NCBI GenBank assembly: GCA_900314355.1
Contig: OMUY01000079.1
Span: 1 to 58,635 of the forward strand
Direction: 5' to 3'
From: an uncultured Eubacteriales bacterium
GTDB taxonomy: Bacteria > Bacillota > Clostridia > Oscillospirales > Acutalibacteraceae
Length of the DNA stretch: 58,635 nucleotides
The notes under the pieces are model-generated. The model saw only the letters and a list, made by a program, of their open reading frames with translations, was not told where the DNA came from and did no database searches. The stretch's first letter is position 1, and every line of letters starts with the position of its first letter. The translations under genes were made by a program, and so were the position numbers. Shown piece by piece: positions 6,806 to 32,432 of the stretch.

Positions 6806-6816
6806 AAAAATTTTGG

Positions 6817-6843
6817 CGGACGGGTTTAACCTGTCCGTCTTTT
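6817..6843 (+). terminator. terminator of the GntR/ABC operon
   Basis: CGGACGGG and CCTGTCCG form an 8-bp stem (one G-U), followed by TCTTTTA, 11 bases after the permease stop. Confidence 0.75.
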
Positions 6844-6853
6844 ATCCGGCAAA

Positions 6854-6883
6854 AATTACGGCCCGAAAAAACGGGTCGTAATT
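6854..6883 (-). terminator. terminator of the EF-G-like gene
   Basis: A 12-bp stem AATTACGGCCCG / CGGGTCGTAATT with an A6 loop. On the minus strand it is followed by five Us. It lies 14 bases past the EF-G paralogue stop and faces the hairpin at 6817, in a convergent gap. Confidence 0.8.
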
Positions 6884-6896
6884 ATTTATAAAATTT

Positions 6897-8945
6897 TTAT
6901 TCTTCTTCTTTGTTTGCCTCGTAATCGGATCTTACTTTTTCGGCTACGTTTTCCGGAGCTCTTTCGTAGCGCACAAAAGTGAAGTCGAATGATCCTCTGC
7001 CCTGAGTTACGGATCTGAGAACAGTAGCGAAATCGCCCATTTCTCCCATAGGAACTTCGGCTTCAAGTTTCTGCATTCCGGGCTCGTCTGCCGGTCCCAT
7101 GCCGAGAACTCTGCCGCGTCTTTTTGTTACGTCGCCCATAATGTCGCCGAGATTGTCGTCAGGCATATAAGCGTTTAATGTTCCGATTGGCTCCAAAATG
7201 GCCGGTCCGGCGACATCCGCCAATTTCTTGAACGCGAGTGACGCCGCGGTCTTGAACGCCATATCAGACGAGTCGACAGGGTGATAAGAGCCGTCGTAAA
7301 GAGTAGCTTTTACGCCCACTACGGGATAACCGGCGGTAAGACCCCTGAGGGTCGATTCTCTTAGACCTTTCTCAATAGCGGGGAAGTAGTTTTTGGGAAC
7401 AGAACCGCCGAAAACTTCCTCTGCGAATACGAGGTCGTCCGAATCGCACGGTTCAAATCTTATCCATACGTCGCCGAACTGACCGTGACCGCCGGACTGT
7501 TTTTTATGTCTTCCCTGAACTTCGACTTTCTTTGTAATAGTCTCTCTGTACGGGACCTTGGGAACTTTCAGCGAGACGTCAACGCCGAATTTATTCTTTA
7601 ACTTTGAGACGATCAGGTCAAGATGCTGCTCGCCGAGACCGGAAAGTATAGACTCCTTTGTTTCCTCGTTGAGTTCAAACGTAATTGAAGGATCTTCTTC
7701 TATAAGTTTTCTGAGACCTGAAGCCGCTTTCTCGTCTTCACCTTTTTTCGCAACCTCTACGGCCATAGAAAGGCAGGGCTTCGGGAAATCTACGCCTGGA
7801 AGCTCAACAGGGTTCTTTTCATCGCATATGGTGTCGCCTGTCTTGACTCCGGAAAGCTTTGTTACAACGCCTATATCTCCCGCGGAAATGCAGCTTGCAT
7901 CCTCCTGTTTTGAACCTCTTATTGTAATTATTTTGCCCATTCTTTCGGATTCGCCCGTTCTGAAATTGTATGCAGGCGTGTCTGATGTGATTTTTCCGGA
8001 TATTACCTTGAAATAGGACATTTTGCCTACAAAGGGATCTGCTACGGTTTTGAAGCATATTGCGGCGAGCGGCGCGTTTTCGTCGCATTTGACGTTGTTC
8101 TTTCCCTCGACTTTATCTGCGGCGGAAGGTCCGAAGTTCGCGATAGCGTTGAGCATAAGGTCTATAGCTTCGCAGTTGTAACCGTCGCACGCGAAAACAG
8201 GCATAATTGTTCCTTCCGTTATGCCTTTCTTCATTCCCTCGTAGATTTCCTCGTCCGTAAATTTTTCGCCGTCAAAGAATTTCATCATGAGGTCATCGTC
8301 CGCGGAAGCTACAGCCTCGTTCATTCCGTCTTTAAGACTCTCAATTTCAGCGTCATCCGGAAGTGCGGCTTCCGAAACTTTACCATTTGAGTACGAATAA
8401 GCTTTGTTCACGGATAAATCCACATAAGATTTAACTTTGCCGCCTTCTACATGAGGAACAATGACAGGGCATACGTTTTTGCCGTATTTTGCCTGAATAG
8501 CCGCATATGTTTTATAGAAATCCGCGTTATCGGAGTTGCATTTTGTAATTGCGAACATTATCGAATTTCCTGTCTTTGACGCGGCCTTGTAAGCTTTTTC
8601 GGCTCCGACGTCAATATCTCCGCCTGCCTGCAATACTATAAGAGCCGAACCTGCCGCTCTCATACCCTCGGCAAGTCCTTCCGCGAAATCGAAAAGACCG
8701 GGAGTGTCAATTATATTGATTTTTTTGTTGAGCCATTCAAGCGGCGCGACGGACGCCTGAACAGTTACCTGTCTTTTCTTTGATTCCGGATCGGAATCCA
8801 TAACGGTGTTTCCGTCAGCTACTCTGCCCAGTCTGTCGGTAGCTTTTGCCGTGTAGAGCATAGCCTCCGCAAGAGTAGTCTTGCCTCTGCCCGAATGGCC
8901 GGCTATACAGATGTTTTTGATATTGTCCGGTGTGTACTTTTTCAA
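6897..8945 (-). CDS. elongation factor G-like translational GTPase
   Basis: 682 residues with EF-G domain order. The P-loop is GHSGRGKT (16-23) and G3 is DTPG (80-83). Domain IV carries GGHGQFGDVWIRF, and a C-terminal EF-G domain V is present. It differs from housekeeping EF-G: the switch I region reads RQVTVQAS (58-65) rather than RGITI, and the G4 motif NKxD reads TKCN (134-137). These mark the EF-G-2/EF-G-like paralogue group, whose role is poorly defined. The start is TTG at 8945, preceded by GGAGGA with 7-base spacing. It is monocistronic. The canonical fusA, normally in the str operon, is not in this window. Confidence 0.85.
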   Translation of the reverse strand: MKKYTPDNIKNICIAGHSGRGKTTLAEAMLYTAKATDRLGRVADGNTVMDSDPESKKRQVTVQASVAPLEWLNKKINIIDTPGLFDFAEGLAEGMRAAGSALIVLQAGGDIDVGAEKAYKAASKTGNSIMFAITKCNSDNADFYKTYAAIQAKYGKNVCPVIVPHVEGGKVKSYVDLSVNKAYSYSNGKVSEAALPDDAEIESLKDGMNEAVASADDDLMMKFFDGEKFTDEEIYEGMKKGITEGTIMPVFACDGYNCEAIDLMLNAIANFGPSAADKVEGKNNVKCDENAPLAAICFKTVADPFVGKMSYFKVISGKITSDTPAYNFRTGESERMGKIITIRGSKQEDASCISAGDIGVVTKLSGVKTGDTICDEKNPVELPGVDFPKPCLSMAVEVAKKGEDEKAASGLRKLIEEDPSITFELNEETKESILSGLGEQHLDLIVSKLKNKFGVDVSLKVPKVPYRETITKKVEVQGRHKKQSGGHGQFGDVWIRFEPCDSDDLVFAEEVFGGSVPKNYFPAIEKGLRESTLRGLTAGYPVVGVKATLYDGSYHPVDSSDMAFKTAASLAFKKLADVAGPAILEPIGTLNAYMPDDNLGDIMGDVTKRRGRVLGMGPADEPGMQKLEAEVPMGEMGDFATVLRSVTQGRGSFDFTFVRYERAPENVAEKVRSDYEANKEEE

Positions 8946-12120: not shown

Positions 12121-13092
12121 TTATGAATTTTCTGTCATTATTTTATATGCTATTTCTTCGAGTTCTTCAATCGAGTTCATCTCGGACATTTTCCGTCTGT
12201 ACTCCGCGGAACCTCTCAATCCCTTCGTATACCACAGAGCGTGTTTTCTTGCCTCGTTAATTCCTCTCTTTTCACCCTTGTACTCGATAATTTTTTTGAC
12301 ATGTTCTATCATTATTCTCATTTTTTCCGAAACAGGAGGATCAGGAAAAGAATACCCGTTTTTCTTCAGGCTTGATATCTGATAAAACAGCCATGGATTG
12401 CCAAGCGCTCCTCTTGCAACCATAACTAAGTCGCATCCGGTTTCGGTATACATTTTTCCGGCGTCAGAGGCGGAATATATATTTCCGTTCCCGATTACGG
12501 GTATTTTTAAATTTTTCTTTACAAGTTCTATTGATTTTAAATCGACGGGAGGGGAGTACATCTGCTCCCTTGTTCTTCCGTGAACTGTTATCGCGTCCGC
12601 TCCGCCTGATTCGCAGGCCTTCGCACAGTCTAAAACACGGCTTGCATCCGACCAGCCTGTTCTGATTTTTGCCGTTACCGGCACGCCGACGCTTGATTTT
12701 ACGGCATACACTATTTTTTCAATATTTTCCGGAGATTTTAATAAAGCGCTGCCGGAGCCGGATTTTGTGATTTTAGGAGCAGGACATCCGAAATTTATGT
12801 CTATGAAATCAGGTAAAAATTCCATTGCGAGTTTTGACGCTTCCGCCATTGTTTTCGGGTCTGCACCGAAAAGCTGAACTCCCTGAGGAACATCCGATTT
12901 TATTCTTTTTAAAAGCTGTTTTGATTTTTCGTCGCCGAAAGTCAGTGCTTTTGCGGATACCATTTCAGATACCGTCATTGACGCCCCGAAACCGGAGCAA
13001 AGTTCTCTGAAAGCCCTGTCGCTCACTCCGGCCATCGGCGCAAGACATGATGTTCTCTCGACGGAAATAGATCCGATTTTTAGTTTTTCCAA
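12121..13092 (-). CDS. dusB: tRNA-dihydrouridine synthase
   Basis: A 323-residue FMN-dependent enzyme that reduces uridines in the tRNA D-loop. The FMN-binding start LAPMAGVSDRAFREL (about 17-31), DINFGCPAPKITKSGSGSALL with the catalytic Cys (about 97-117), and VHGRTREQMYSPP are all present. It starts at TTG (13092) after a GGGAC ribosome site, so it may be weakly translated. It is convergent with the DapA-family gene. The subfamily is DusB-like, as in most Firmicutes. Confidence 0.92.
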   Translation of the reverse strand: MEKLKIGSISVERTSCLAPMAGVSDRAFRELCSGFGASMTVSEMVSAKALTFGDEKSKQLLKRIKSDVPQGVQLFGADPKTMAEASKLAMEFLPDFIDINFGCPAPKITKSGSGSALLKSPENIEKIVYAVKSSVGVPVTAKIRTGWSDASRVLDCAKACESGGADAITVHGRTREQMYSPPVDLKSIELVKKNLKIPVIGNGNIYSASDAGKMYTETGCDLVMVARGALGNPWLFYQISSLKKNGYSFPDPPVSEKMRIMIEHVKKIIEYKGEKRGINEARKHALWYTKGLRGSAEYRRKMSEMNSIEELEEIAYKIMTENS

Positions 13093-13180
13093 TTCTATCG
13101 TCCCTGAAAATTATTTAATACTTAAATTATAATTGTGAAAATCTTCATATTATTACAAATAGGCAAATTGATAAAAATAC

Positions 13181-13208
13181 TTGAAAATGAGAAAAATTGT
13201 GATATAAT
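13181..13208 (+). promoter_or_regulatory. promoter of tRNA-Val
   Basis: TTGAAA (13181-13186), 16 bases, TATAAT (13203-13208), 11 bases before the tRNA. Confidence 0.8.
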
Positions 13209-13219
13209 TACATTGTTAC

Positions 13220-13296
13220 GGAGGCTTAGCTCAGCTGGTCAGAGCGTTTGCTTCACACGCAAGAGGTCGACGGTTCGAGCCCGCCAGTCTCCACCA
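13220..13296 (+). tRNA. tRNA-Val (anticodon CAC)
   Basis: A 77-nt cloverleaf with encoded CCA. The acceptor stem GGAGGCT/AGTCTCC has one G-U pair. Anticodon loop TTCACAC gives CAC, which reads GUG. The T-loop is CGGTTCGAGCCCG. It is a solitary gene. Confidence 0.95.
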
Positions 13297-13307
13297 AAAT
13301 ATATTTT

Positions 13308-13332
13308 TCGGCTTTTTATCAGCCGATTTTTT
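13308..13332 (+). terminator. terminator of tRNA-Val
   Basis: TCGGCT/AGCCGA hairpin followed directly by six Ts. Confidence 0.85.
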
Positions 13333-13471
13333 ATTGTAAATATATTTCCTGTATTTATAAATACAATGATTGCCGGATATTTCGCGTATTTTGAGTATAA
13401 TATATTATTTGATGCAAATTAAAATAATTAAAATTTTCGTTGACAAGGCAAAATTAATTTATCTTAGATCG

Positions 13472-13644
13472 AAGATAGAAGACAGTAATTGAATATGATC
13501 TAAAATCAGAATGAAATTGCGTCGACCCTTGCAGCCGCCCGCTGTGGGATTTCGGTTGTATCGAAGACGCAGGCAGTAAATTATTTCCGGTTTAGACAAA
13601 AGGGCATACGGGATTTAAAGATTTTCCTGTCTGTCAATTTTTTT
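13472..13644 (+). ncRNA. candidate structured small RNA (6S-like size)
   Basis: A GC-richer island in an AT-rich gap. The ends pair (GACAG at 13481 with CTGTC at 13631). Inward stems are TCTAAA/TTTAGA (13499/13591), GAAAT/ATTTC (13513/13583) and TGCGTC/GACGCA (13518/13566). Inside these are two hairpins: CCC-GCAGC/GCTGT-GGG (13526-13548) and TTCG/CGAA (13551-13565). A T7 run follows the closing stem. TTGACA at 13440 could be its -35 box, but the -10 box is weak. Length (about 170 nt), closed ends and U-run resemble 6S RNA, but I cannot confirm the family. Confidence 0.4.
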
Positions 13645-13712
13645 CATTGATCAGTTTAGAATAATATAAAAAAATTCCGATTTTTTTGAAAAAAATCCCA
13701 AAAAAATAATTT

Positions 13713-13728
13713 TGTTGTTAGTACAACA
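13713..13728 (+). promoter_or_regulatory. Crp/Fnr-type palindrome upstream of the DUF438 gene
   Basis: TGTTGT-TAGT-ACAACA, the same half-sites as the palindrome at 16383-16398 next to the Crp/Fnr regulator gene. Its centre lies about 42 bases before the predicted transcription start, the usual class II activator position. Confidence 0.75.
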
Positions 13729-13750
13729 GATTTGTGGTAATTACATATGA

Positions 13751-13756
13751 TATAAT
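13751..13756 (+). promoter_or_regulatory. -10 box of the DUF438 gene
   Basis: A perfect TATAAT with no recognisable -35 box at 16-18 bases upstream, as expected for a promoter that needs the activator bound at 13713-13728. Confidence 0.65.
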
Positions 13757-13792
13757 ACAGACACAAGATAAAAAAGGGAGCGCGAAAATAAA

Positions 13793-15301
13793 ATGAGAAA
13801 AAAAATTGATTTAAATAAATCTGTTTATGAATTGGCGAAAGAATATCCCGAGCTTATCGATATTATGGCGAATCTCGGATTTACGGAGATAAAAAAGAAA
13901 TCCGTCTTGAACTCCGTTGGAAAAATAATGACTGTTCCAAAGGGGTCCAAGATGAAAAATATTCCTATGTCGGATGTAATCGCCGCTTTTAATGCAAACG
14001 GATTTGATATTGAAGGTGGAATGCCCGGCGCTGACGAAAGCAAAAAGCCGGACGAGCCTCAAAAAAGTCTGAAGTCGGACGACAGCACGGAAAAGCTTAA
14101 ATCTTATCTCCGCAGACTTTCCGGCGGCGAGGATTTGGAGAGCGTAAGGGCGGATTTTGTCCGTGAGTTCGGAGATGCGGACGCGTCTGATATTATGAAA
14201 GCCGAGCAGGAGCTTATTAAGGAGGGCGCTCCGCTGTCGGAAGTTCAGCGGCTGTGCGACGTTCATTCGGCGCTGTTTCACGGCAAGACAAGAGAAGAAA
14301 AGATTGCCAATGCGGAAAAAGCTGTTGAAGACTCCCTAAAGCGTGAAAAAATCAAACAGAAAATAGCTAAGGCGGATTCCTATCCGAAAAAAGACTATAC
14401 GGACAAGAAAGCAATGGCGGCAAAGCTTGAAGAGTATAAAGGTCATCCTCTCCGTACTTTGACGAGGGAAAACGATAAACTCTCGGAGCTTCTGTCAAAA
14501 TTTAAAAACACTCATGATTTGACGATTCTTCGTGATATTCGCGGACTTTCCGTCCATTACGCGAAAAAAGGAGACCTTTTATATCCGCTTCTCAAAGTTA
14601 AGTACGGCATATCGGGACCGTCCGATGTGATGTGGACTGTCGATGACGAAATCAGAGATGAAATAAGCGGGCTCGATAAAGAAACAGACCGTAATGAACA
14701 GTGGAACGAGAGGCTTGACGCTGTTGTGACGCGAGCGGAGGAAATGATTTATAAAGAAAAGAATATTCTTTTTCCGATATGCGCCGTCAATTTTACGGAA
14801 GACGAGTGGAAAGGTATTTATAAAGATTCTAAGGATTACGACGTATGCTTCGGCGTGGAAAGCGAAATATGGGAAGACGCGGAAAAATCCGCCGATGATT
14901 CGTCTTTCTTTGACGGAGAGGTAGTTATGTCGGGCGGTCATATGACTGTTGAACAGCTGACAGCTCTGTTAAACACGATTCCTATGGAAATTACTTTTGT
15001 TGACGCGGACAATATCAACCGCTTCTTCAACGAAGGGCATAAGGTTTTCAAGCGTCCGGGAATGGCTGTTGACCGTGAAGTTTTTTCGTGCCATCCGCCT
15101 AAAGTCGAGCCGATTGTAAGAAAAATTATCGATGAGTTCAGGTCGGGCAAAAACGACGTAGTTCCGATATGGATGGAAAAAGGCGGCAGAACGATGCTTG
15201 TCAGATATATGGCTGTACGCGGCAAAAACGGAGAATATCTCGGAACTGCCGAACTCGTACAGGATATGGAATTTGCCAAAGAACATTTTTGTAAAGATTG
15301 A
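13793..15301 (+). CDS. DUF1858-DUF438-hemerythrin-PAS sensor protein
   Basis: A 502-residue cytoplasmic protein with four parts: a DUF1858 domain (about 1-70); DUF438 (about 80-165, sequence around LRRLSGGEDLESVRADFVREFG); a hemerythrin-like helical domain (about 215-345, with His residues in HPLRTLTREND, THDLT and HYAKKGD and Glu residues in YKEKNILFP) that may bind a di-iron centre; and a PAS domain (about 375-500, containing the CHPPKV motif). Such proteins are linked to oxygen or nitric-oxide sensing or detoxification in anaerobes. The upstream palindrome places it in the same regulon as the hcp operon. The ribosome site is GGGAG. The protein is complete. Confidence 0.88.
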   Translation: MRKKIDLNKSVYELAKEYPELIDIMANLGFTEIKKKSVLNSVGKIMTVPKGSKMKNIPMSDVIAAFNANGFDIEGGMPGADESKKPDEPQKSLKSDDSTEKLKSYLRRLSGGEDLESVRADFVREFGDADASDIMKAEQELIKEGAPLSEVQRLCDVHSALFHGKTREEKIANAEKAVEDSLKREKIKQKIAKADSYPKKDYTDKKAMAAKLEEYKGHPLRTLTRENDKLSELLSKFKNTHDLTILRDIRGLSVHYAKKGDLLYPLLKVKYGISGPSDVMWTVDDEIRDEISGLDKETDRNEQWNERLDAVVTRAEEMIYKEKNILFPICAVNFTEDEWKGIYKDSKDYDVCFGVESEIWEDAEKSADDSSFFDGEVVMSGGHMTVEQLTALLNTIPMEITFVDADNINRFFNEGHKVFKRPGMAVDREVFSCHPPKVEPIVRKIIDEFRSGKNDVVPIWMEKGGRTMLVRYMAVRGKNGEYLGTAELVQDMEFAKEHFCKD

Positions 15302-21662: not shown

Positions 21663-21826
21663 AAAATATTTAATTAACCGGAGATTTAATGATTTTCGGT
21701 TCTTTTTACATGACCGCCGAGATAACAAAAGAATTGAATCCGCCTTTTTTGGAAGAAAATACGCGGTTGATTGTGATAGAATTTATCTTGAAAAGTAAAA
21801 TAAAAAAGAGACAAAGGTGTCAAATT

Positions 21827-22879
21827 ATGAATAACGATGAAATGTGGAAGGCTGTTAAAGAATGTGACGCCTCATGTGACGGAAAGTTTTTTTACGGTGT
21901 GAAAACAACCGGTATTTACTGCCGCCCGTCATGTAAATCAAAGCTTCCTAACAGAGAAAATGTCGTTTTTTTCAAGACAAGGCGGGAAGCCGAAAATGAA
22001 GGTTTTCGTCCGTGCAAGCGCTGCCGACCGGATTTGGTGCAATATGACCCTGCCGCGGATCTGTCGGAAAGAACAAAGAAATTGCTTGATAGCTATTTCA
22101 GCGATCGAATGAAACTTGAAAGCGATATGAGAGAAATGGGAGTGAGCAGAAAACATCTGACAGAGATCTTCAAACAGCAGTATGACATCACGCCATCCGA
22201 ATATTTGACACAGGTAAGGATCGCCGCCGCAAGAAGTCTGCTGCAGGACGGATATTCCGTCACGGACGCCGCCGGTATGGCAGGGTATGAAAATCTGTCG
22301 GAATTTTACGATTATTTCCGCCGGCAGACAGGAATGACGCCGGCAAGATATCGTCAGATTTTCGCTGATAATATCAGTCGAAGCGTTATGGAAACTCCTA
22401 TCGGGTCTTTAAGGATTATAGCCTCGCAGGATGCCGTTCTCTGCGTAGAACAGGAAAAAAAGGAAAGTTCAGACGCAGGCGCGCAGGTCGTCGATATTCC
22501 TGCCGACCGCATTATAACAGGCGATCCCTCAGGTGAATTGGTGAAAGACTGCAAGGCTCAGCTCAACGAATATTTTGCCGGAAAAAGACGAAAATTTGAC
22601 CTGCCGGTTAACCCCGAGGGAACGGATTTTCAGAAAAATGTATGGGAACATCTCACAGACATCCCTTACGGACAGACGCGCACTTACGGAGAGCTTGCCG
22701 CGATTACTGGTAATAAAAAAGCTTCACGGGCGATAGGAATGGCCAACCACATTAATCCGATTTTGATTTTGATTCCCTGCCACCGTGTCATTGGCGCCGA
22801 CGGCAGTCTTACCGGATACGCAGCCGGTATTGAAGCGAAAAAATATCTTCTAACAATGGAAAGAAAATATTCTCTGTGA
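21827..22879 (+). CDS. ada: bifunctional Ada: methylated-DNA methyltransferase and AraC-type activator
   Basis: 350 residues with three parts. The N-terminal Ada zinc domain carries Cys32, Cys36, Cys63 and Cys66; the methylphosphotriester acceptor is expected among the Zn-binding Cys, in GIYCRPSC. An AraC helix-turn-helix spans about 90-180. The C-terminal O6-methylguanine methyltransferase has active site PCHRV (Cys318). Start at 21827 (MNNDEMW) gives the normal family length and has AAAGGTG upstream; an earlier in-frame start would add 46 unrelated residues. Its stop overlaps the start of a broken alkA, an alkylation-repair operon. All catalytic residues are intact. Confidence 0.92.
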   Translation: MNNDEMWKAVKECDASCDGKFFYGVKTTGIYCRPSCKSKLPNRENVVFFKTRREAENEGFRPCKRCRPDLVQYDPAADLSERTKKLLDSYFSDRMKLESDMREMGVSRKHLTEIFKQQYDITPSEYLTQVRIAAARSLLQDGYSVTDAAGMAGYENLSEFYDYFRRQTGMTPARYRQIFADNISRSVMETPIGSLRIIASQDAVLCVEQEKKESSDAGAQVVDIPADRIITGDPSGELVKDCKAQLNEYFAGKRRKFDLPVNPEGTDFQKNVWEHLTDIPYGQTRTYGELAAITGNKKASRAIGMANHINPILILIPCHRVIGADGSLTGYAAGIEAKKYLLTMERKYSL

Positions 22880-23527
22880 AAGATGAATATTTTCCATTCG
22901 GAGAGCGGTAAATTTCCTGGCTTAAAAATAGGGATCCGCAGTTGGGCGAGGTCATTTCCAAAATGGGAAAGCCGAAAAGAAATCTGTTTCCAAACATTTT
23001 TTCGGGACTTGTTTTCTATATAATTTCGCAGCAGATCTCGGCAAAAGCGGCTGAAACAGAATGGAAACGGTTTCAAGAACTGTGTTCACCTGTCAAGCCG
23101 GAAAATACCCGCCGCTTTACGCCGGAGAAAATACAAAAGTGCGGTACGACTCTTCGCAGGGCTGGATATATCAGACTGATTGCAGAAAAGCTTGCGGACA
23201 ATACTATTGACGTGAATTCACTTATTAAAGAAGATGACGCAGAATTTATCAAAAAAAATCACAAAATTGCCGGATGTCGGAGAATGGACAGCTCAGATGC
23301 TTCTGATTCATATGCTGAAAAGACCGAATGTCATCAGTTTCAAGGATGTGGCTGTTCTTAGGGAAATGTGTATGGTTTATCGGGTTTCGTATATCCGCCG
23401 GGAATTTTTTGAACAGAAAAAAGATATTTATTCCCCATATTCGACAACCGCAAGCATCTATTTCTGGACAATTTCAACCCGGAAAACCGCCGATAAAGCA
23501 GAAAATCAGAGAGCAGAGAACAAATAA
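22876..23527 (+). pseudogene. DNA-3-methyladenine glycosylase (AlkA/HhH-GPD), disrupted
   Basis: The reading frame starts at GTG 22876, overlapping the ada stop. It gives the usual N-terminus (KDEYFPFGER) but meets TAA at 22909-22911, then continues with the family sequence ISWLKNRDPQLGEVISKMGK, later SGLVFYIISQQISAKAAE. At an A8 run (23251-23258) the frame shifts by one extra base, after which ITKLPDVGEWTAQMLL and the C-terminal half (YSPYSTTASIYFWTIS) follow in the next frame. The family HhH-GPD catalytic Asp would lie in the KDVAVLRE region. Nonsense plus frameshift means no full protein unless both are sequence errors. Confidence 0.85.
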
Positions 23528-23553
23528 ACAAAATCTTCAAGGAGGATCATATT

Positions 23554-23943
23554 ATGCAACACAGAATGAGAGAATTTCAGATGGATAAGAAATCGGTTGA
23601 TAAAGTTCTGACAGAAAACCGAGTAGGTCACGTTGCTGCGATCGGAACCGATGGTTTCTCGTATGTGGCGCCGGTGTTTTTTTGTACCGGAGCGGTAAAA
23701 TATATTTTCACGGTCTGAAGGTTGGACAAAAACTCGAAAATATAAAAACAAATTCCTATGTAGGTTTTGAAACGGTAGAATTTAAAGAAGTCATTAAAGA
23801 AAAACTTGACTGTCCCTGCGATGCGGACGCGGTATATCAGAGTGTCGTTGTTCGCGGAAAAGCAAGGATACTTGATGACGTGACAAAGAAGGAAGAAATT
23901 CTCAGGGCAATTTTGAAAAAGTACGCACCCGATTCATTTTGTG
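23554..23943 (+). pseudogene. pyridoxamine 5'-phosphate oxidase-like (NimA-type) protein, frameshifted and truncated
   Basis: An ATG at 23554 after a good AGGAGG site starts MQHRMREFQMDKKSVDKVL, then GHVAAIGTDGFSYVAPVFF, typical of split-barrel flavin-binding proteins. At a T7 run (23677-23683) one base is missing. The family sequence continues in another frame (YRSGKIYFHGLKVGQKLENI, then VGFETVEF and VVVRGKARILDD). It stops resembling the family near residue 125 and runs without a stop into AT-rich DNA and the next gene. It is thus broken by an indel and lacks its C-terminus. Confidence 0.8.
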
Positions 23944-25226: not shown

Positions 25227-25293
25227 TTTTTGCGGTGATTTCAATATTTTGTTTTTTGAAATTATTGTAAAAAATAAATAAAAAAATATAATA

Positions 25294-25328
25294 ACAGACC
25301 GTAGTTTTACTTGACTATGGTCTGTTTT
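25294..25328 (+). terminator. terminator of the epimerase gene / possible leader hairpin
   Basis: An 11-bp stem ACAGACCGTAG/CTATGGTCTGT (one G-U), then TTTTCGTT. A possible promoter (TTGTAA at 25265, TATAAT at 25287) would start transcription inside this hairpin, so it may also shape the 5' end of the operon below. Confidence 0.75.
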
Positions 25329-25356
25329 CGTTATAAAATTAATTTAGGTGAGTTTA

Positions 25357-26061
25357 TTGAAAATTTATCATAAGGGTTTCAACTATTCACAGGACGGACC
25401 TGGAAACAGGCTTGTATATCATATGCAGGGATGCAATTTCAAATGTAAATGGTGTTCCAATTACGACTCAATTCCGTTTGATTCTCCCGACGCGTTTGAA
25501 ATGACGCCTGACGAGATTTTGAACGAAGTGATGAGGTCAAAGATGATTTTTTTCTCGGGCGGCGGAGTCACTTTCACAGGAGGAGAACCAACAGTTCAGT
25601 TTGAAGAGCTGAAAAAAACGCTTATTCTTCTGAAAGAAAACGGGATTTCCACTTGTATAGAAAACAACGGCTCGAGTCCTCGTCTTAAGGAACTGTCGGA
25701 CTATATAGATTTCCTGATAATGGATTTAAAGATTGTCGATGAGAAAAAGCATATGTATTATACAGGCGCGTCAAACAGCCGGACGCTCGAAAATATAAGG
25801 TATTTTTCAAAAATCGGCAGACAGCTCCATCTGAGAATACCTATGATAAACGGCATAAACGACGACCCGCATGAATTTATCGATTTTCTCAAGCCGTTAA
25901 ACTACAAAAATCTCACATTGGAGGTACTAAAATACCACGAATACGGAAAAGAAAAATGGGGAGATAAATACGAAATTAAAAACGGTTTCGTATCAGATGA
26001 GCAGTTTAACGATTTCAGAAACGAATTGATTAAATCCGGCATCCAGATAGCGGATTACTGA
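25357..26061 (+). CDS. glycyl radical enzyme activase (radical SAM)
   Basis: 234 residues from TTG 25357, chosen because TAGGTGAG lies five bases upstream; GTG 25348 would give 237. Cys26, Cys30 and Cys33 form the CxxxCxxC that binds the SAM-cleaving [4Fe-4S] cluster, preceded by SQDGPGNR as in PflA-type activases. VTFTGGEPTVQ is the SAM-binding GGE motif. There is no ferredoxin-like insert, so it is of the short PflA-like type. Its job is to install the glycyl radical on the enzyme encoded 35 bases downstream. Confidence 0.93.
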   Translation: MKIYHKGFNYSQDGPGNRLVYHMQGCNFKCKWCSNYDSIPFDSPDAFEMTPDEILNEVMRSKMIFFSGGGVTFTGGEPTVQFEELKKTLILLKENGISTCIENNGSSPRLKELSDYIDFLIMDLKIVDEKKHMYYTGASNSRTLENIRYFSKIGRQLHLRIPMINGINDDPHEFIDFLKPLNYKNLTLEVLKYHEYGKEKWGDKYEIKNGFVSDEQFNDFRNELIKSGIQIADY

Positions 26062-26096
26062 ATTGTTTTATTTTTTAAGAAAGAGGCATTTTTAAA

Positions 26097-28427
26097 ATGA
26101 TCTTTGATAATTACACTCCGGAAAAAATAACCGAACTTGCGAAAAAACAGTTTAAATACGAAAGGGCGAAAAAGCGTCTTGACGGCTGGTTCCTCGCGAA
26201 AGAGGAAGAGGTTAAGCTGTATGACAAATATAAAGGCGTAGAGCCTGAACTTCAAAAGGCATATATCCTGAATGAGATAATATCCGACATTCCGCTCACA
26301 ATAGATCCTTACGTTATTTTTGCCGGAACTCAGGACGATGCTTTTGCGAGAAGCTATGCTCTTATAAATCCTTCATTTAAAGTGGAGGAGTTCTGCGGCT
26401 ACTGCGATACGAGCGCTGTTTTCGGCGATATTGAACCTTCCAAAGAAATACCGCAGGAGAGGATAGACAAAGTAAGAGACGAATTTGCGAAGACTAAATA
26501 TTCAAAAGACCTGTCAAAAGTTTACGGAAAATACGAACCGTATACTAAAGAAGTCGTATTTTTCATGGAACAGGTCACAGGTCATATGATTCCGGATTTA
26601 AGGTATGTCATTAAATACGGCGTAAAGAAAATGAGGAAGGAACTTGACGCGAAAGAAGGCAGAAATTTCGCGGCGTTCTCCATGGCTTTGGGCGCCGTGC
26701 AGGTTCTTGCGCAGAGATACAAAAAAATTGCCGAGACACAGGCGTCATTAGCGTCGGACGAAGACAGACCGAGACTTGAGCTAATCGCGAAAACTTTGGC
26801 GAAAGTGCCGGATGAAGGCGCGTCGAATATGTATGAGGCCATGCAGACTTTTATACTCGTATGGCAGGTTATGTGCCTTGAACAGGCGCCCAATCCTTTT
26901 GCGTTCTCCGTGGGAAACGCCGACAGAATTTTTGAACCATACAGAAAAAATCTGTCGAGGAATGAAGTCGCTGCTCTGTTTAAACATTTTCTCGTATTTT
27001 TCAACGTCGCGGACAGAAGCTGGGCTATTTCGCAGAATGTTCTTCTCTCCGGAAAGGATAAGGACGGAAACGACCTTACTAATTTCACAACTTACGCTAT
27101 TTTGGACGCGTACTACGATATGAACCTGCCGCAGCCGATTTTGTCTGTAAAACTTCATAAAAATACTCCGAAAAAACTTTATGAAGAACTCGGAAGATTT
27201 TTCTTCTCGGCCGGCAAACTTACGCCGTCACTTTTCAACGACGATTCTCTTTGGACTGTTCTCGGAAAGACAAGGGATGAGGAAGATCTTCCGGATATTT
27301 CCGTCGCAGGATGTCAAGAGCCTCTTATCATGGGCAAAGACAACGGAAATACGACAAACAGCTGGCTGAATCTCGGCAAAATACTCGAATTGACTATCAC
27401 AGGCGGCGTATCCACAGTCACAGGTGAAAAACTGTTTGACGATATGAAACCGTGCGATCTTCATAACGTTAAAGAAGAGTTTTTGAAAAATACAAAGAGA
27501 TTTGCCGATGTCATGGCAGAAGCCGCAAACGGTGTATCTAAAGCTTTGTGGAATGTCAGAACTCCGTTCCTTTCATGCCTTATGGGCGGTATGGAGTCCG
27601 GTTATGACGTCAGAGATGTGGAAAACCAGGGCAGCAAGTACAACGGCTCGGGATGCTTAATACACGGAATTACGGTAGTCGCCGATTCTATCTCTGCCAT
27701 TGACAAGCTTTTAAAAGAGCGTCCCGAAGACGCGGATAAACTTATACCGGCGATGATGGCGGATTTCAACGGATATGAGGATCTTCAGAAATTCCTGCTT
27801 TCCGCAGACAAGTACGGAAATAACATCGAAGGCGTCGACAAACTTGCAGGCGAGCTTGCTTCCGATGTGGCGGACATTGTGTCGTCTGAGAAAAACTATC
27901 TCGGCAATCCGTTCAGAGTCGACTACTCCACGCCGTCTACGCACCTTCTCTACGGCTACTGGGTAGGCGCGACGCCCGACGGAAGGAAAGCGAGAACAGA
28001 GCTTAACTACGGCGTTGATCCGCTTTTCGGCAGCGCGGAGAACGGACTCGGATTCAGAATACTTTCCAATATGAATATGCCTTTTGAAAAATTTGACGGA
28101 GGATATGCCCAGCATCTCGGAGTAGACCCGAAGTATTTCAAGGCCGGCACAATGGAGGGCAAAGGGCTTGAATTTGATGAAAAAATTGTGGAGCCTCTTT
28201 TCTTTAATCCTGAAAAGAAGGGAGTTTCACCTTTCTATCTTTATGTAAACGTCACAACGGCTGAAATACTGAAAAAAGTTCTCGCCGAACCGGAGGTTTA
28301 CGCGCCCTCGGGAATTTACATTATGAGAATACACGGAACTTTTGTGAATTTCCTTGACCTGTCTCCGGCTATACAGCAGGATATTATCGCAAGACTTGAC
28401 CCCGCGGCTTCAAAAATCGGCTGCTGA
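26097..28427 (+). CDS. glycyl radical enzyme of unassigned specificity
   Basis: A 776-residue PFL-family enzyme. The active-site loop VAGCQEP has Cys406 and Glu408, a Cys-x-Glu arrangement used by dehydratase, C-N, C-S or C-O lyase members, unlike the Cys-Cys of pyruvate formate-lyase. The radical-bearing Gly747 is in RIHGTFVNF (the family motif RxxG[YFT]). So it is not PFL. It lies between its activase and a sugar kinase, pointing to a sugar- or polyol-type substrate or its phosphate. The activase-lyase-kinase trio resembles reported routes in which a radical lyase opens or dehydrates a (phospho)polyol; the specific reaction is inference. Confidence 0.93.
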   Translation: MIFDNYTPEKITELAKKQFKYERAKKRLDGWFLAKEEEVKLYDKYKGVEPELQKAYILNEIISDIPLTIDPYVIFAGTQDDAFARSYALINPSFKVEEFCGYCDTSAVFGDIEPSKEIPQERIDKVRDEFAKTKYSKDLSKVYGKYEPYTKEVVFFMEQVTGHMIPDLRYVIKYGVKKMRKELDAKEGRNFAAFSMALGAVQVLAQRYKKIAETQASLASDEDRPRLELIAKTLAKVPDEGASNMYEAMQTFILVWQVMCLEQAPNPFAFSVGNADRIFEPYRKNLSRNEVAALFKHFLVFFNVADRSWAISQNVLLSGKDKDGNDLTNFTTYAILDAYYDMNLPQPILSVKLHKNTPKKLYEELGRFFFSAGKLTPSLFNDDSLWTVLGKTRDEEDLPDISVAGCQEPLIMGKDNGNTTNSWLNLGKILELTITGGVSTVTGEKLFDDMKPCDLHNVKEEFLKNTKRFADVMAEAANGVSKALWNVRTPFLSCLMGGMESGYDVRDVENQGSKYNGSGCLIHGITVVADSISAIDKLLKERPEDADKLIPAMMADFNGYEDLQKFLLSADKYGNNIEGVDKLAGELASDVADIVSSEKNYLGNPFRVDYSTPSTHLLYGYWVGATPDGRKARTELNYGVDPLFGSAENGLGFRILSNMNMPFEKFDGGYAQHLGVDPKYFKAGTMEGKGLEFDEKIVEPLFFNPEKKGVSPFYLYVNVTTAEILKKVLAEPEVYAPSGIYIMRIHGTFVNFLDLSPAIQQDIIARLDPAASKIGC

Positions 28428-28436
28428 AATCAGATT

Positions 28437-29750
28437 ATGAACTCAATAGGTTTAGACATAGGTACGACAAGTGTCTGCGCGATAAAAGCAGACGCTTTGT
28501 CGGGTGAAATAACAGATATTAAAACGCGTCCGAATAATTCTTTTATTAATACGGATAAGCCGTTTGAAAAAATCCAGGATCCCGAAAAAATATTGAATAT
28601 ATGCAGAGAGCTCCTCGATTCCATAATTGACACAGACACGGTATCAATCGGAATAAGCACTCAGATGCACGGTATTTTATACGTAGATAAATTCGGTAAA
28701 TCCCTCAGCCCTTTTTATATCTGGCAGGATATGAGAGGCGATAAGATTTTTAAAGACGGAAAGACGTACGCCGGAGTTCTTAATACTTTTCCGGGATACG
28801 GTTCTTCTACCCACCTTTATAATAAAGTAAACGGTCTTATTCCGCACGACGCGAAAAAATTTACATCAATCGGCGATTACGTCGCGATGAATTTGACTGG
28901 CAATAACAGGCCGGCGGTAAATATTACGGTCGCCGCGAGTTTCGGTTGTTTCGACGAAGAAAAAAATAAATTTAAAAATTCCGAAGAAAACTTTCCTGAC
29001 GAATATTTTCCCGATGTAATTTCCGATTTCTCACCGGTCGGAAAATATAAAAATATAATTGTAACGCCGTCTATAGGCGATAACCAGGCAGGTTTCCTCG
29101 GTGCTGTGGGGAACAGCAAAGACATTCTTTTAAATGTCGGCACCGGCTCTCAGGTTTCGCTCATTTCCGATTATCCTTCTTCATCGCCGTCGCTTGAGAC
29201 AAGACCGTATGACGGAAAAAGATATCTTCTCGCCGGATGCGCGCTTTGCGGCGGCAGAGCGTTTTCAGACGTTGTTAAATTTATCGGCGAATGCGCGACT
29301 GTAATTACAGGTGAAAAATACGACAATATTTATCCGTTTGTCGATAAACTTATGAGCGGCAGCAACGGAACGGCTGAAAATAAACCGATTAAATTTGACA
29401 CGAGGTTCTGCGGAACAAGAAGGGATTCTTCCGTCACAGGGTCGATTACGGGAATTACGGAAAATAATCTTACTCCTTATACTTTTCTCGTAGGCGCACT
29501 TGACGGCATGGCAGAGGAACTTTTTGATTATTATTCATCGTCAGGCGTCTCGGCAAAAGAGGCGGTAGCGACCGGAAACGGCGTCAGAAAAAACAAGAAG
29601 CTGAAGGAAATCTTTGAACGGAAATTTAATATGCCGGTTAAGATTCCAAAAGTAAGGGAGGAAGCGGCGTTCGGAGCTTTTCTTTCGTCGCTTATCGGAA
29701 TAGGAAAAATTACATTCGACGACACAAAGAAATATATCTCGTACGAATGA
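28437..29750 (+). CDS. FGGY-family carbohydrate kinase (sedoheptulokinase-like)
   Basis: 437 residues, starting nine bases after the glycyl radical enzyme. Phosphate-1 motif is LDIGTTSVCAIK, then ISTQMHGI; FYIWQDMRG holds the catalytic Asp (WQD). Phosphate-2 is NVGTGSQVSLIS and the adenosine motif ATGNGVRKNKKLKEIF. It is somewhat shorter than typical FGGY kinases (about 480-520). The overall pattern is closest to sedoheptulokinase-type members. It phosphorylates a sugar or polyol either before or after the radical step. It is last gene of the operon; hairpins at 29762-29775 and in the repeat that follows terminate it. Confidence 0.88.
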   Translation: MNSIGLDIGTTSVCAIKADALSGEITDIKTRPNNSFINTDKPFEKIQDPEKILNICRELLDSIIDTDTVSIGISTQMHGILYVDKFGKSLSPFYIWQDMRGDKIFKDGKTYAGVLNTFPGYGSSTHLYNKVNGLIPHDAKKFTSIGDYVAMNLTGNNRPAVNITVAASFGCFDEEKNKFKNSEENFPDEYFPDVISDFSPVGKYKNIIVTPSIGDNQAGFLGAVGNSKDILLNVGTGSQVSLISDYPSSSPSLETRPYDGKRYLLAGCALCGGRAFSDVVKFIGECATVITGEKYDNIYPFVDKLMSGSNGTAENKPIKFDTRFCGTRRDSSVTGSITGITENNLTPYTFLVGALDGMAEELFDYYSSSGVSAKEAVATGNGVRKNKKLKEIFERKFNMPVKIPKVREEAAFGAFLSSLIGIGKITFDDTKKYISYE

Positions 29751-29782: not shown

Positions 29783-29880
29783 AAAACAAGACTGCAAACT
29801 TGCGAAAGAGCGGGAATGCAGTCTTTTTTTGTAAATAATTTCTTGATATGAAAAAATATCACGCGAATATTTTAATCAAT
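29783..29880 (+). repeat. 98-bp direct repeat, copy A (contains a terminator)
   Basis: About 95% identical to 30604-30701 over 98 bases. It contains AGACTGCA...TGCAGTCT followed by seven Ts, a terminator that would serve the kinase operon and, on the other strand, the 179-residue gene. The two copies bracket the gene at 29896-30435 in the same orientation. Confidence 0.85.
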
Positions 29881-31037: not shown

Positions 31038-32432
31038 TCAATTTACCTGAAAATAAGATATCTGAGGCGTTTTTCTGAATTTTTCAAATACTACCATTAC
31101 TGCCTGAGATTCGACTGTTTTCCCGGAGCATATTTTTTTGTGTCCGACAGTCGTGCCTTCGTCGTATTTTTTCCATTTTCCGCCGTCATCGTAATAAACG
31201 GTAAACTGTTCTACCTGTTGTCCCGAACGTATATGTTCCTTTATCACTATTTTATTGAAAAGTTCGGGCTTTTCAAATCTCACCGTAAGCGACGGACTTT
31301 CATCGCTGTCGTCCGGACGCCAGAATGAATCGTTGTCGTCGTTTAAAACGTTTTCCGCCTTGAACATTGAGTTAAGCTCAGTTGATGGATTTATCTGAGC
31401 GTCATGCGCGAGATTATATCCGAAAACAACATGAATTTCGTGACCTGTTGATTTGAAAATCTGCATCTCGGTGTCGGTGAATTTTCCGAATTTGTTCGGA
31501 CTTAAATCAAAAATCAGATTTGAATTATTCCCGACCGATCTGTAATAAATGTCGAGAATTTTGTCCTTTGTCTTTGAAGAATAGTCATCATCGGGAATGT
31601 AGAAACGGTGTTTTCTCAGTTTTGTGTATACCTCGCAGGGAGACCAGATGAAATCCGTCTCCTTTTTAATGGATTTTCTCGAACCGATGTCATTTTCCCA
31701 TTTTCCTTCTTTCGGACCGCAGACCGAAAGAAGCCTGTCGCCGTTTTCAGAATAACCGTATCCGGCGGGTACTACGCACCATTCGCTTTTTCTTGTGACT
31801 CCCTGGTCGTTTCCGAGATATCTCGCGTCGGGACCTCTGAATGCTATAGCGCAGTCGGGCTGATATTTTCTGATAATTGAGTATATTCTGCCGTAGTCTA
31901 TATCAAAATTTACAGGCGTCTCACTTCTGTCGTCAATGAAAAATTCAAACAGAGGACCGTAATTATTTACAAGTTCCCAAACTTGTTTTTCAACATACTC
32001 GGAGAAGGGAAGACCCGAGTCGTGAAAAGTCTGCTCGTGCCTGTCCCGCAAAGCGTAATAAATTCCGAATTTAAGACCGCTTTCCAAAGCGGATTTTTGA
32101 GCGGATTTCAGAATATCCCCTTTTCCGTCGAGCCACTTTGATTTTTTTACGGAATAATCAGTTGTGTCGGTCTGCCAGACGCAGAATCCGTCGTAATACT
32201 TTGCGGTCACCATAAGACCTTTCATCATGCTGATTTTTGCTGTCTCGCACCAGATATCTGTGTCAAGGTCTATAGGAAAAAAAGTTTCCGGAGGCGCGCA
32301 GCCGTCTTCGGTGAGTGAAAAAGTCGGCATGGAATATGATATCAACGCGTAGTATTCCATATCCTGCCATTTCAGTTGTCTTTCGCTCGGAACTATTTCC
32401 GCCGCTGTTTCAAATGATTTTTTATTGCTCAT
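31038..32432 (-). CDS. divergent GH29 (fucosidase-like) protein with C-terminal discoidin-type domain
   Basis: 464 residues, similar along its first 330 to the fucosidase at the window start (shared VPSERQLK, DGF, GIYY, RHE, RKYQPD blocks). Key positions differ: HFG becomes SYS (32-34), KHHDGF becomes KYYDGF (78-83) and WFDG becomes FIDDR (165-169). About 130 C-terminal residues (NPSTELNSMFKAENVLNDDN onward, ending in QISYFQVN) look like an F5/8 type C/CBM32-type module. There is no signal peptide. It may have a different specificity or be a non-catalytic carbohydrate binder. It is followed by its own terminator. Confidence 0.78.
   Translation of the reverse strand: MSNKKSFETAAEIVPSERQLKWQDMEYYALISYSMPTFSLTEDGCAPPETFFPIDLDTDIWCETAKISMMKGLMVTAKYYDGFCVWQTDTTDYSVKKSKWLDGKGDILKSAQKSALESGLKFGIYYALRDRHEQTFHDSGLPFSEYVEKQVWELVNNYGPLFEFFIDDRSETPVNFDIDYGRIYSIIRKYQPDCAIAFRGPDARYLGNDQGVTRKSEWCVVPAGYGYSENGDRLLSVCGPKEGKWENDIGSRKSIKKETDFIWSPCEVYTKLRKHRFYIPDDDYSSKTKDKILDIYYRSVGNNSNLIFDLSPNKFGKFTDTEMQIFKSTGHEIHVVFGYNLAHDAQINPSTELNSMFKAENVLNDDNDSFWRPDDSDESPSLTVRFEKPELFNKIVIKEHIRSGQQVEQFTVYYDDGGKWKKYDEGTTVGHKKICSGKTVESQAVMVVFEKFRKTPQISYFQVN

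Follow-up and report, generated by a model that had tools for sequence, protein, structure and literature searches.

An operon encoding a glycyl radical enzyme, its activase and a sugar kinase

The window analysed here, a stretch of 58,635 nucleotides from an uncultured bacterium of the Clostridia (contig OMUY01000079.1), contains three closely spaced genes on the forward strand that encode a radical-SAM (S-adenosylmethionine) activase, a glycyl radical enzyme (GRE) and a short sugar kinase of the FGGY family. We consider it reasonably likely that they belong to an apparently uncharacterised subfamily of the oxygen-sensitive GREs acting in a catabolic module for sugars or polyols, together with the activase, a ketose-type FGGY kinase and often a ManA-like isomerase.

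The activase gene (25357–26061, 234 aa) starts with a TTG codon preceded by AGGTGA, an alternative, longer reading being possible from a GTG at 25348, and carries the CxxxCxxC motif of [4Fe-4S]-SAM enzymes at residues 26–33 (25432–25455). After a gap of 35 bases follows the GRE gene (26097–28427, 776 aa), in which residues 404–410 read AGCQEPL, placing the proposed thiyl residue and base in Cys406-Gln407-Glu408 (27312–27320), and in which Gly747 lies within RIHGTF, the putative glycyl-radical motif (28326–28343). Only 9 bases further on, the kinase gene (28437–29750, 437 aa) encodes QMHG at residues 76–79 and the catalytic Asp215 in GDNQ. The three products match Pfam Radical_SAM (94 bits), PFL-like (308.6 bits) and FGGY_N (PF00370; 52.7 bits), respectively, all over the cut-offs; PF02782, the C-terminal half of the kinase, was not reported by Pfam.

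A stem-loop followed by a T run (29788–29825, forward strand) is likely the intrinsic terminator of the operon; the segment 29752–29835 folds with a minimum free energy of -26.8 kcal/mol (z -4.8). Thus, the three genes, their motifs and spacing and the terminal hairpin described in an earlier note on this DNA were all found as it had placed them. A consensus scan detected a second, 14-pair stem-loop with a T-rich tail just 5' of the activase gene (25293–25326, forward strand), which would be either the terminator of the preceding gene or a leader. The same scan gave four terminator-like sites in the region versus a mean of 5.3 in shuffled sequences, and hence no excess. The gene arrangement itself was found again in dozens of genomes and is thus not due to chance.

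A distinct GRE subfamily with an altered glycyl loop

The GRE shows the features expected of its superfamily, namely a PFL-like barrel, a central Cys, a C-terminal Gly loop and a dedicated radical-SAM activase, but it reached none of the NCBIfam equivalog cut-offs reported. The best match was the general PFL2-3 subfamily model (223 bits versus a cut-off of 678), and the models for HypD, CutC, HpsG/HpfG, IAD, HPAD and pyruvate formate-lyase (PFL) were all missed by far. NF007437, which we take to be the PflD-type model, gave 153 bits against a cut-off of 1109. An identity as PFL was considered and rejected (61 bits versus 994). Moreover, the genome of the window encodes a separate PFL-like protein of 697 bits on another contig (window GRE, 309 bits), pointing to an enzyme other than the window GRE as the PFL of the cell. 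These data, and the invariance of Glu408, agree with the earlier proposal of a Cys-x-Glu GRE that is not a PFL and has no assigned substrate.

Relatives were searched across 84,980 species, each represented by a single genome, and the best 80 of 111 relatives were kept. These are 57–71% identical to the window GRE, and their record titles, mostly those of metagenome-assembled genomes, name Clostridia, Clostridiales, Lachnospiraceae, Oscillospiraceae, Ruminococcaceae and other Firmicutes, from sources such as the ruminant, horse, rabbit and chicken gut. The family appears sparse, since in a sample of 398 genomes drawn evenly across the phylum the best match outside the genome of the window, among the matches listed, was 33% identical; in a sample of the order, 6 of 245 genomes carry the GRE, that of the window included. 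Homologues on plasmids (139 records) were distant GREs only, all below 60% identity.

A FastTree phylogeny was built from 34 of the 77 full-length family sequences and 31 other GREs, leaving out the outsiders L008 (a near-duplicate) and L028 (a fragment); the underlying alignment held 77 of 81 sequences, the truncated or broken L038, L041, L099 and L112 being excluded. All 34 family sequences fall on one side of a single branch (support 100, stem of 1.54 changes per column), separate from YbiW, PflD and PFL. Long branches, those of the family and of PFL, meet in this tree, which leaves the point where the family joins other GREs unsettled, while the unity of the family is supported. Judged from sequence, the GRE thus represents a distinct, conserved and apparently uncharacterised subfamily of a known superfamily. 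We take it as new because no description was found in the open-licence literature of PubMed Central (PMC), a scope that mostly leaves out subscription papers; the family may already exist as an unnamed cluster in published similarity networks.

An AlphaFold2 model of the GRE, made with 77 sequences (mean pLDDT 85, pTM 0.90), is closest in fold to 1r8w, the B12-independent glycerol dehydratase, followed by 2f3o, PFL2 of Archaeoglobus fulgidus, and 9rcq, a propanediol dehydratase (TM-scores 0.81–0.82), while 8id0 (PflD) and 8id7 (YbiW) rank 33rd and 38th. A profile search gave 282 bits for 1r8w, 250 for 2f3o, 247 for 9rco, 220 for 8id0 and 160 for 8id7. Cys406, Glu408, Gly747 and His163 are invariant in all 77 aligned family members, with Gly-Cys406-Gln-Glu408 standing where PFL has Cys-Cys, and His163 aligning with the conserved Gly-His of GREs. 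The likeness to glycerol and 1,2-propanediol dehydratases (1r8w, 9rcq and 5i2g; TM-scores 0.80–0.82, 1r8w having the best profile score) includes Cys-x-Glu and a Gly-His near residue 163, but the family differs from them by RIHGTF, by the absence of about 11–12 residues between 307 and 308, which the other aligned GREs have as well, and at the diol site, where Ser282 and Asp447 of 1r8w, presumably its diol-binding residues, align with Ala269 and Thr420. In addition, neither an aldehyde dehydrogenase nor a shell-protein family of microcompartments was found among 30 neighbouring proteins scanned, a subset of the neighbours, in keeping with the earlier judgement that this is not a typical diol-dehydratase locus. 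PFL2 is the second-best match in both fold and sequence, but is only about 23% identical and has RVAGWS as its motif; to our knowledge, no function has been assigned to it. All five family members aligned have Ala at position 269, Ser at 312 and Thr at 420, where YbiW has Ser, Tyr and Gly and PflD has Ser, Gly and Asp; the His-Asp of PflD (419–420) is replaced by Thr-Thr. YbiW has one extra residue in this segment, and an ungapped count from the Cys gives Thr at +14, the same as in the family, so a resemblance to YbiW at this point is possible.

The glycyl motif of GREs usually reads R-[IV]-[ASCT]-G-[YWF]. The family departs from it with RIHGTF, which is invariant in all 77 aligned members and recurs in 5/5 further family GREs outside the alignment, and PF01228 was not reported by Pfam for the window GRE at E 0.001. 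In the other GREs the motif is RV(A/S/T)G(Y/W/F) wherever the pattern could be read (it could not in L004, L028 and L031), so that the residue after the Gly is Tyr, Trp or Phe in every one of these and Thr in the family. A change is also seen in the activase. The window activase has the signature QDGPGNRLVYH, and DGxGNR[LF][VI]xH is found in 73 of 75 family activases; in the two remaining cases, L086 was read from a wrong start although its DNA encodes DGPGNR, and the sequence of L087 is masked by N beyond DGPGNR. By comparison, 22 motifs from activases outside the family (L001–L032 and the Escherichia coli loci), collected with a pattern that demanded GPG, all read DGPG[I/V/C/L]R. The changes in both glycyl loop and activase suggest that the two have become adapted to each other, as far as can be told from sequence motifs. 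A ferredoxin-type insert, searched for with a crude pattern, occurs in 8 of the 75 family activases, all among the longer ones, and none was seen in that of the window. One locus, L128, encodes a second, conventional activase of the DGPGIR type 3' of the kinase gene on the same strand (5525–6358), with no second GRE seen nearby.

Conserved partners and gene neighbourhoods

The earlier note had proposed to compare neighbourhoods for a conserved trio of activase, lyase and kinase. The activase gene could be assessed in the 77 loci where 800 bases or more were available upstream of the GRE gene, and was found within about 300 bases in 73; it lies at 1.4 kb in L108, and none was detected in L035, L096 and L099. 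The kinase gene, assessable where more than 1,500 bases were available downstream, is present in 52/70 loci (57/80 overall). Of 56 loci with a downstream kinase gene, 48 have it starting no more than 39 bases from the end of the GRE gene or overlapping it; in L035 it is upstream. As a further check, we turned to the five other genomes with a GRE in the order survey, where the highest identity of each GRE to any of the 80 was 66–81%: all five have the activase (that of L125 at 6252–6992 was located by motif), and all five have the kinase adjoining the GRE or one gene away. Hence, the trio is indeed conserved in most loci.

The kinase model (pLDDT 93) combines the FGGY fold with the catalytic Asp, and it most closely resembles the folds of xylulose and gluconate kinases, then those of glycerol kinases. 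In an alignment of 36 of 58 kinases Asp215 is invariant, and the QMHG residues and catalytic Asp are as in XylB, where GlpK has QRE. In FGGY kinases, QMHG-type residues bind ketose-type substrates. Besides these residues, a fold similarity of TM 0.81–0.84 links the window kinase to XylB-type enzymes, but it is only 16–20% identical to them, about 50 residues shorter, and reaches 70 of the required 380 bits on XylB, its best NCBIfam match. No sedoheptulokinase model came up in the searches, so that the earlier label 'sedoheptulokinase-like' finds no support. Kinases of the same family are also encoded in some genomes of the order sample that have no GRE, where they score 379–496 bits as compared with 530–632 bits in GRE genomes. 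Inspection of 11 of these 12 GRE-free contexts showed fusions of MerR and kinase and GH32-like neighbours, but no clear substrate. In L163 (8506–10260), the kinase is fused behind an N-terminal MerR-type DNA-binding domain (Pfam), possibly forming a kinase-regulator fusion, and L159, L162 and L166 look similar by eye. Beside the fusion, L163 and L166 encode a 400-aa protein that Pfam identifies as GH32-like, and L159 one that looks similar by eye; according to Pfam, GH32-like proteins adjoin the GRE-free kinase in L163, L166 and L168.

A ManA-like partner goes, like the family-wide glycyl motif and the activase signature, beyond the view of the earlier note. ManA-like proteins are encoded in 32 of the 80 loci, in 31 of them on the strand of the GRE and in 30 within the same predicted gene run. 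Q107, H109, E127 and H190 are invariant in the 25 of these 32 proteins that were aligned, and coincide with the Gln, His, Glu and His of ManA that we take to be the metal ligands of class I mannose-6-phosphate isomerases. The partner thus shares the putative ligands QxH, E and H with ManA, and the L033 protein is over the cut-off of Pfam MPI_cupin_dom, but this protein, the one member tested, reaches only 75.7 bits on the NCBIfam manA model (cut-off 116.2). Unlike in the phosphomannose isomerase of Bacillus subtilis, where 'DATYR' has an Arg, the partner has an invariant Gln at the aligned position. The L060 locus also encodes an 816-aa protein after the ManA-like gene (4923–7373) that has no Pfam or PDB match (PDB E 0.1) and a cluster mate in L074.

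The window itself has no isomerase gene; the genome does encode one (502 bits), on another contig beside a membrane-protein gene and in no evident sugar operon. In the order sample of 240 genomes, isomerases of at least 490 bits were found in G000, G415, G503, G519 and G598, i.e., in five of the six GRE genomes, and a close orthologue in none of about 234 GRE-free genomes. The sixth GRE genome, G601, has a match of 282 bits, and five GRE-free genomes have matches of 226–270 bits. This co-occurrence gives p 9e-10 in Fisher's exact test, uncorrected for kinship and assuming that the 240 genomes lie within the 245. Among 44 GRE genomes, 29 have the isomerase at E 1e-60, and 9 of the 15 without it are Lachnospiraceae by title or genus. 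Here and below, the placing of genera in the Lachnospiraceae is our own assumption.

Other neighbours offer some clues to the substrate. A GH38 alpha-mannosidase lies in the same predicted operon as the GRE in L034, L035 and L109 (Pfam) and in L033, L039 and L064 (sequence cluster), and the operons of L109 and L107 contain GH32 and DUF2961, respectively, the latter presumably corresponding to GH172. An alpha-L-arabinofuranosidase-like gene is part of the predicted operon of L069 and, by cluster, of L076, and a GH2-type gene and a ROK kinase are found near the GRE in L128. Lachnospiraceae loci have a ribose-type ABC transporter (by eye) and a zinc alcohol dehydrogenase (Pfam on L100) nearby, and a periplasmic sugar-binding-type protein follows in L105. 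Some neighbours have no link to sugars, e.g., MurB, RapZ and WhiA in L092 and citrate synthase in L096. The kinase motifs and some of these neighbours agree with the sugar or polyol theme that had been proposed for this locus.

Four Lachnospiraceae loci (L094, L098, L102 and L103) encode near the GRE a protein of the fructose-6-phosphate aldolase (FSA) family with Gln59 and Tyr131, presumably the FsaA-type pair. We considered FSA as a universal partner of the GRE but rejected it, as TIGR00875 (FSA) matches in 23 of 44 GRE genomes, 14 of them over the cut-off, and in none of the other 21. The genome of the window, which is 86% complete, encodes only a transaldolase-type member of the family (Glu/Phe), away from the locus, and the TAL/FSA gene inside the operon of L056 is also of the Glu/Phe type. 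In the window's genome, the TAL/FSA gene (Glu/Phe) stands on contig C34 (L117, 479–3609) in a row with genes that by eye resemble a hydroxyisobutyrate dehydrogenase and a sugar symporter, an arrangement reminiscent of sulfosugar transaldolase operons.

Elsewhere in the window, an alpha-L-fucosidase-like protein (PF01120) with an F5/8 type C domain is encoded at 31038–32432 on the opposite strand, outside the operon. On the 5' side, overlapping short open reading frames at 22942–23588 resemble one frameshift-broken gene (DNA-glycosylase-like by eye) and lie 3' of a gene at 21689–22879 that is Ada-like by eye. A long open reading frame at 23682–25226 matches a nitroimidazole-reductase/pyridoxamine-oxidase-like domain at its start and an NAD-dependent epimerase in the remainder, and may be two genes in a single frame.

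Proposed reaction and alternative explanations

In Cys-x-Glu GREs, the thiyl radical takes a hydrogen from the substrate, the Glu takes the hydroxyl proton and the beta C–O bond leaves. The GRE described here is most likely a radical C–O lyase or dehydratase that feeds, or is fed by, the ketose-type kinase; provided that the enzyme is a working GRE, we hold C–O cleavage to be strongly favoured. The activase would generate a glycyl radical at Gly747, which would convert Cys406 to a thiyl; the substrate would lose a hydrogen from a carbinol carbon to the thiyl and its hydroxyl proton to Glu408, the neighbouring C–O bond (to a hydroxyl group or a ring ether) would leave, and Cys406 would return the hydrogen to the product. 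Since mannose is isomerised to fructose, GH32 leads to fructose, and FSA cleaves ketoses resembling fructose-6-phosphate, the level of mannose and fructose is the simplest common denominator of the neighbours, and from these few loci we infer that the substrate or product of the GRE lies there. The ManA-like isomerase, present in many lineages and possibly encoded elsewhere in the genome, would interconvert aldose and ketose, and the kinase would phosphorylate the ketose and commit it to glycolysis. As to the order of steps, the ketose-type site slightly favours a kinase acting second or in parallel, while by analogy the E. coli precedent, in which phosphorylation is by the phosphotransferase system (PTS), slightly favours the kinase acting first. 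In its most specific form, this proposal amounts to a not-yet-recorded radical reaction on a sugar or polyol at the mannose/fructose level, with its own glycyl loop, a co-evolved activase pocket, an FGGY kinase and a dedicated isomerase; we put it forward tentatively, as an idea with somewhat less than even chances.

Several of our results weigh against a sugar module built from these parts. The kinase is missing from 18 of the 70 loci in which it could be assessed, and title or genus assigns 11 of these to the Lachnospiraceae. In at least 10 of the 18, another type of FGGY kinase is encoded close by (that of L094 is over the XylB cut-off with 480 bits), and the isomerase is absent from 12 of 14 tested genomes of kinase-less loci. 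Furthermore, only few glycosidases are found among the neighbours, and these are of mixed types. The co-occurrence test treats kin genomes as independent, G519 and G598 being of the same genus, and three of the five co-occurring genomes have the isomerase gene no more than a few kb away from that of the GRE; in the window's genome and in G415 the two are unlinked. Lastly, the idea that the kinase is exclusive to the GRE had to be rejected, as the kinase family occurs without a GRE in 12 of 240 order genomes, and its substrate thus need not come from the GRE. Probably, the kinase has a substrate of its own that is available in the absence of the GRE, and a pathway where the GRE alone supplies it becomes less likely.

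A possible model for the family would be the E. coli enzymes YbiW and PflD; the earlier note had named a lyase acting on 1,5-anhydroglucitol 6-phosphate as the one precedent linking a radical lyase to phosphorylated anhydro-sugars. In a route of this kind, the FGGY kinase would replace the PTS and produce 1,5-anhydroglucitol- or anhydromannitol-6-phosphate, the GRE would open the ring to give 1-deoxyfructose-6-phosphate, and an FSA-type aldolase would cleave the latter. The precedent itself is real, though distant: in the part of PMC12441222 that cites them, Ma et al. are credited with showing that YbiW and PflD cleave 1,5-anhydroglucitol-6-phosphate and 1,5-anhydromannitol-6-phosphate to 1-deoxyfructose-6-phosphate, and the PDB titles of 8id7 and 8id0 name YbiW with the former and PflD with the latter substrate. 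The family shares with these enzymes the Cys-x-Glu site, the sugar-polyol theme and, in a few loci, an FSA-family aldolase nearby, namely the FsaA-like proteins with Gln59 and Tyr131 and the TAL/FSA gene in the operon of L056; in E. coli, fsaA is a neighbour of ybiW, and fsaB and gldA are found near pflD. Unlike them, however, it forms a different clade, has a kinase instead of a PTS and differs in its active-site residues, including Thr-Thr for the His-Asp of PflD; both E. coli enzymes have RVAGYS as their motif, and the YbiY activase has DGPGIR. The family GRE perhaps works like YbiW and PflD, but its place outside both clades and the lack of a TIGR00875 match in about half of the genomes tested (the window's and L056 copies being Glu/Phe types) speak against it. 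Moreover, such a route offers no obvious function for the ManA-like partner, and we know of no FGGY kinase that acts on O6 of an anhydropyranose. On balance, we regard this route as unlikely, though still the most serious competitor to a new reaction on a mannose- or fructose-level substrate.

It could also be that the kinase and the ManA-like enzyme simply convert mannose via fructose to fructose-phosphate, an isomerase and an FGGY kinase being classic partners, and that the GRE is a co-transcribed dehydratase, similar to those for glycerol and propanediol, acting on an unrelated small fermentation product. The nearest GRE folds and the mannose- or fructose-releasing glycosidases in some loci fit this explanation, as does, in L126, a gene for an 870-aa protein (12185–14797) that by eye resembles a bifunctional aldehyde-alcohol dehydrogenase; it lies some 3 kb away from the activase gene, on the other strand. 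It is nevertheless difficult to reconcile with the replacement of Asp447 and Ser282 of glycerol dehydratase by Thr420 and Ala269, with equivalog scores far below the cut-offs and with the 30 neighbours scanned, a subset, among which aldehyde dehydrogenase and shell-protein families were lacking. Nor does a plain mannose route need a close isomerase orthologue that, in the order sample, occurs only with the GRE, even when unlinked to it. We consequently rate this explanation as rather improbable, and less probable than the anhydrohexitol route. Membership of the PFL-like Pfam family might finally suggest a PFL-type C–C lyase, or another C–C or C–N lyase, acting on a sugar-derived keto compound, but with Cys-Cys replaced, Glu408 invariant, a PFL score of 61 versus 994 bits and the separate 697-bit PFL-like protein in the genome, we think this very improbable. 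Neither of the two findings that the earlier note had named as refuting its proposal was made: the GRE did not cluster with any characterised GRE compared, and most homologous loci do contain the kinase.

Time and again, the assignment of GREs has uncovered hidden anaerobic pathways, as for choline, hydroxyproline, isethionate and anhydrosugars. The subfamily described here is found in many gut Clostridia and has cultured hosts such as Sporanaerobium hydrogeniformans, Claveliimonas bilis and Extibacter muris; its partner kinase and isomerase are readily assayable, and the altered residues flanking its radical glycine raise the question of which features are indispensable in a glycyl loop and its activase. 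If the proposed radical reaction on a mannose- or fructose-level substrate is true, it would mean a new radical pathway of sugar catabolism in gut and rumen Clostridia.

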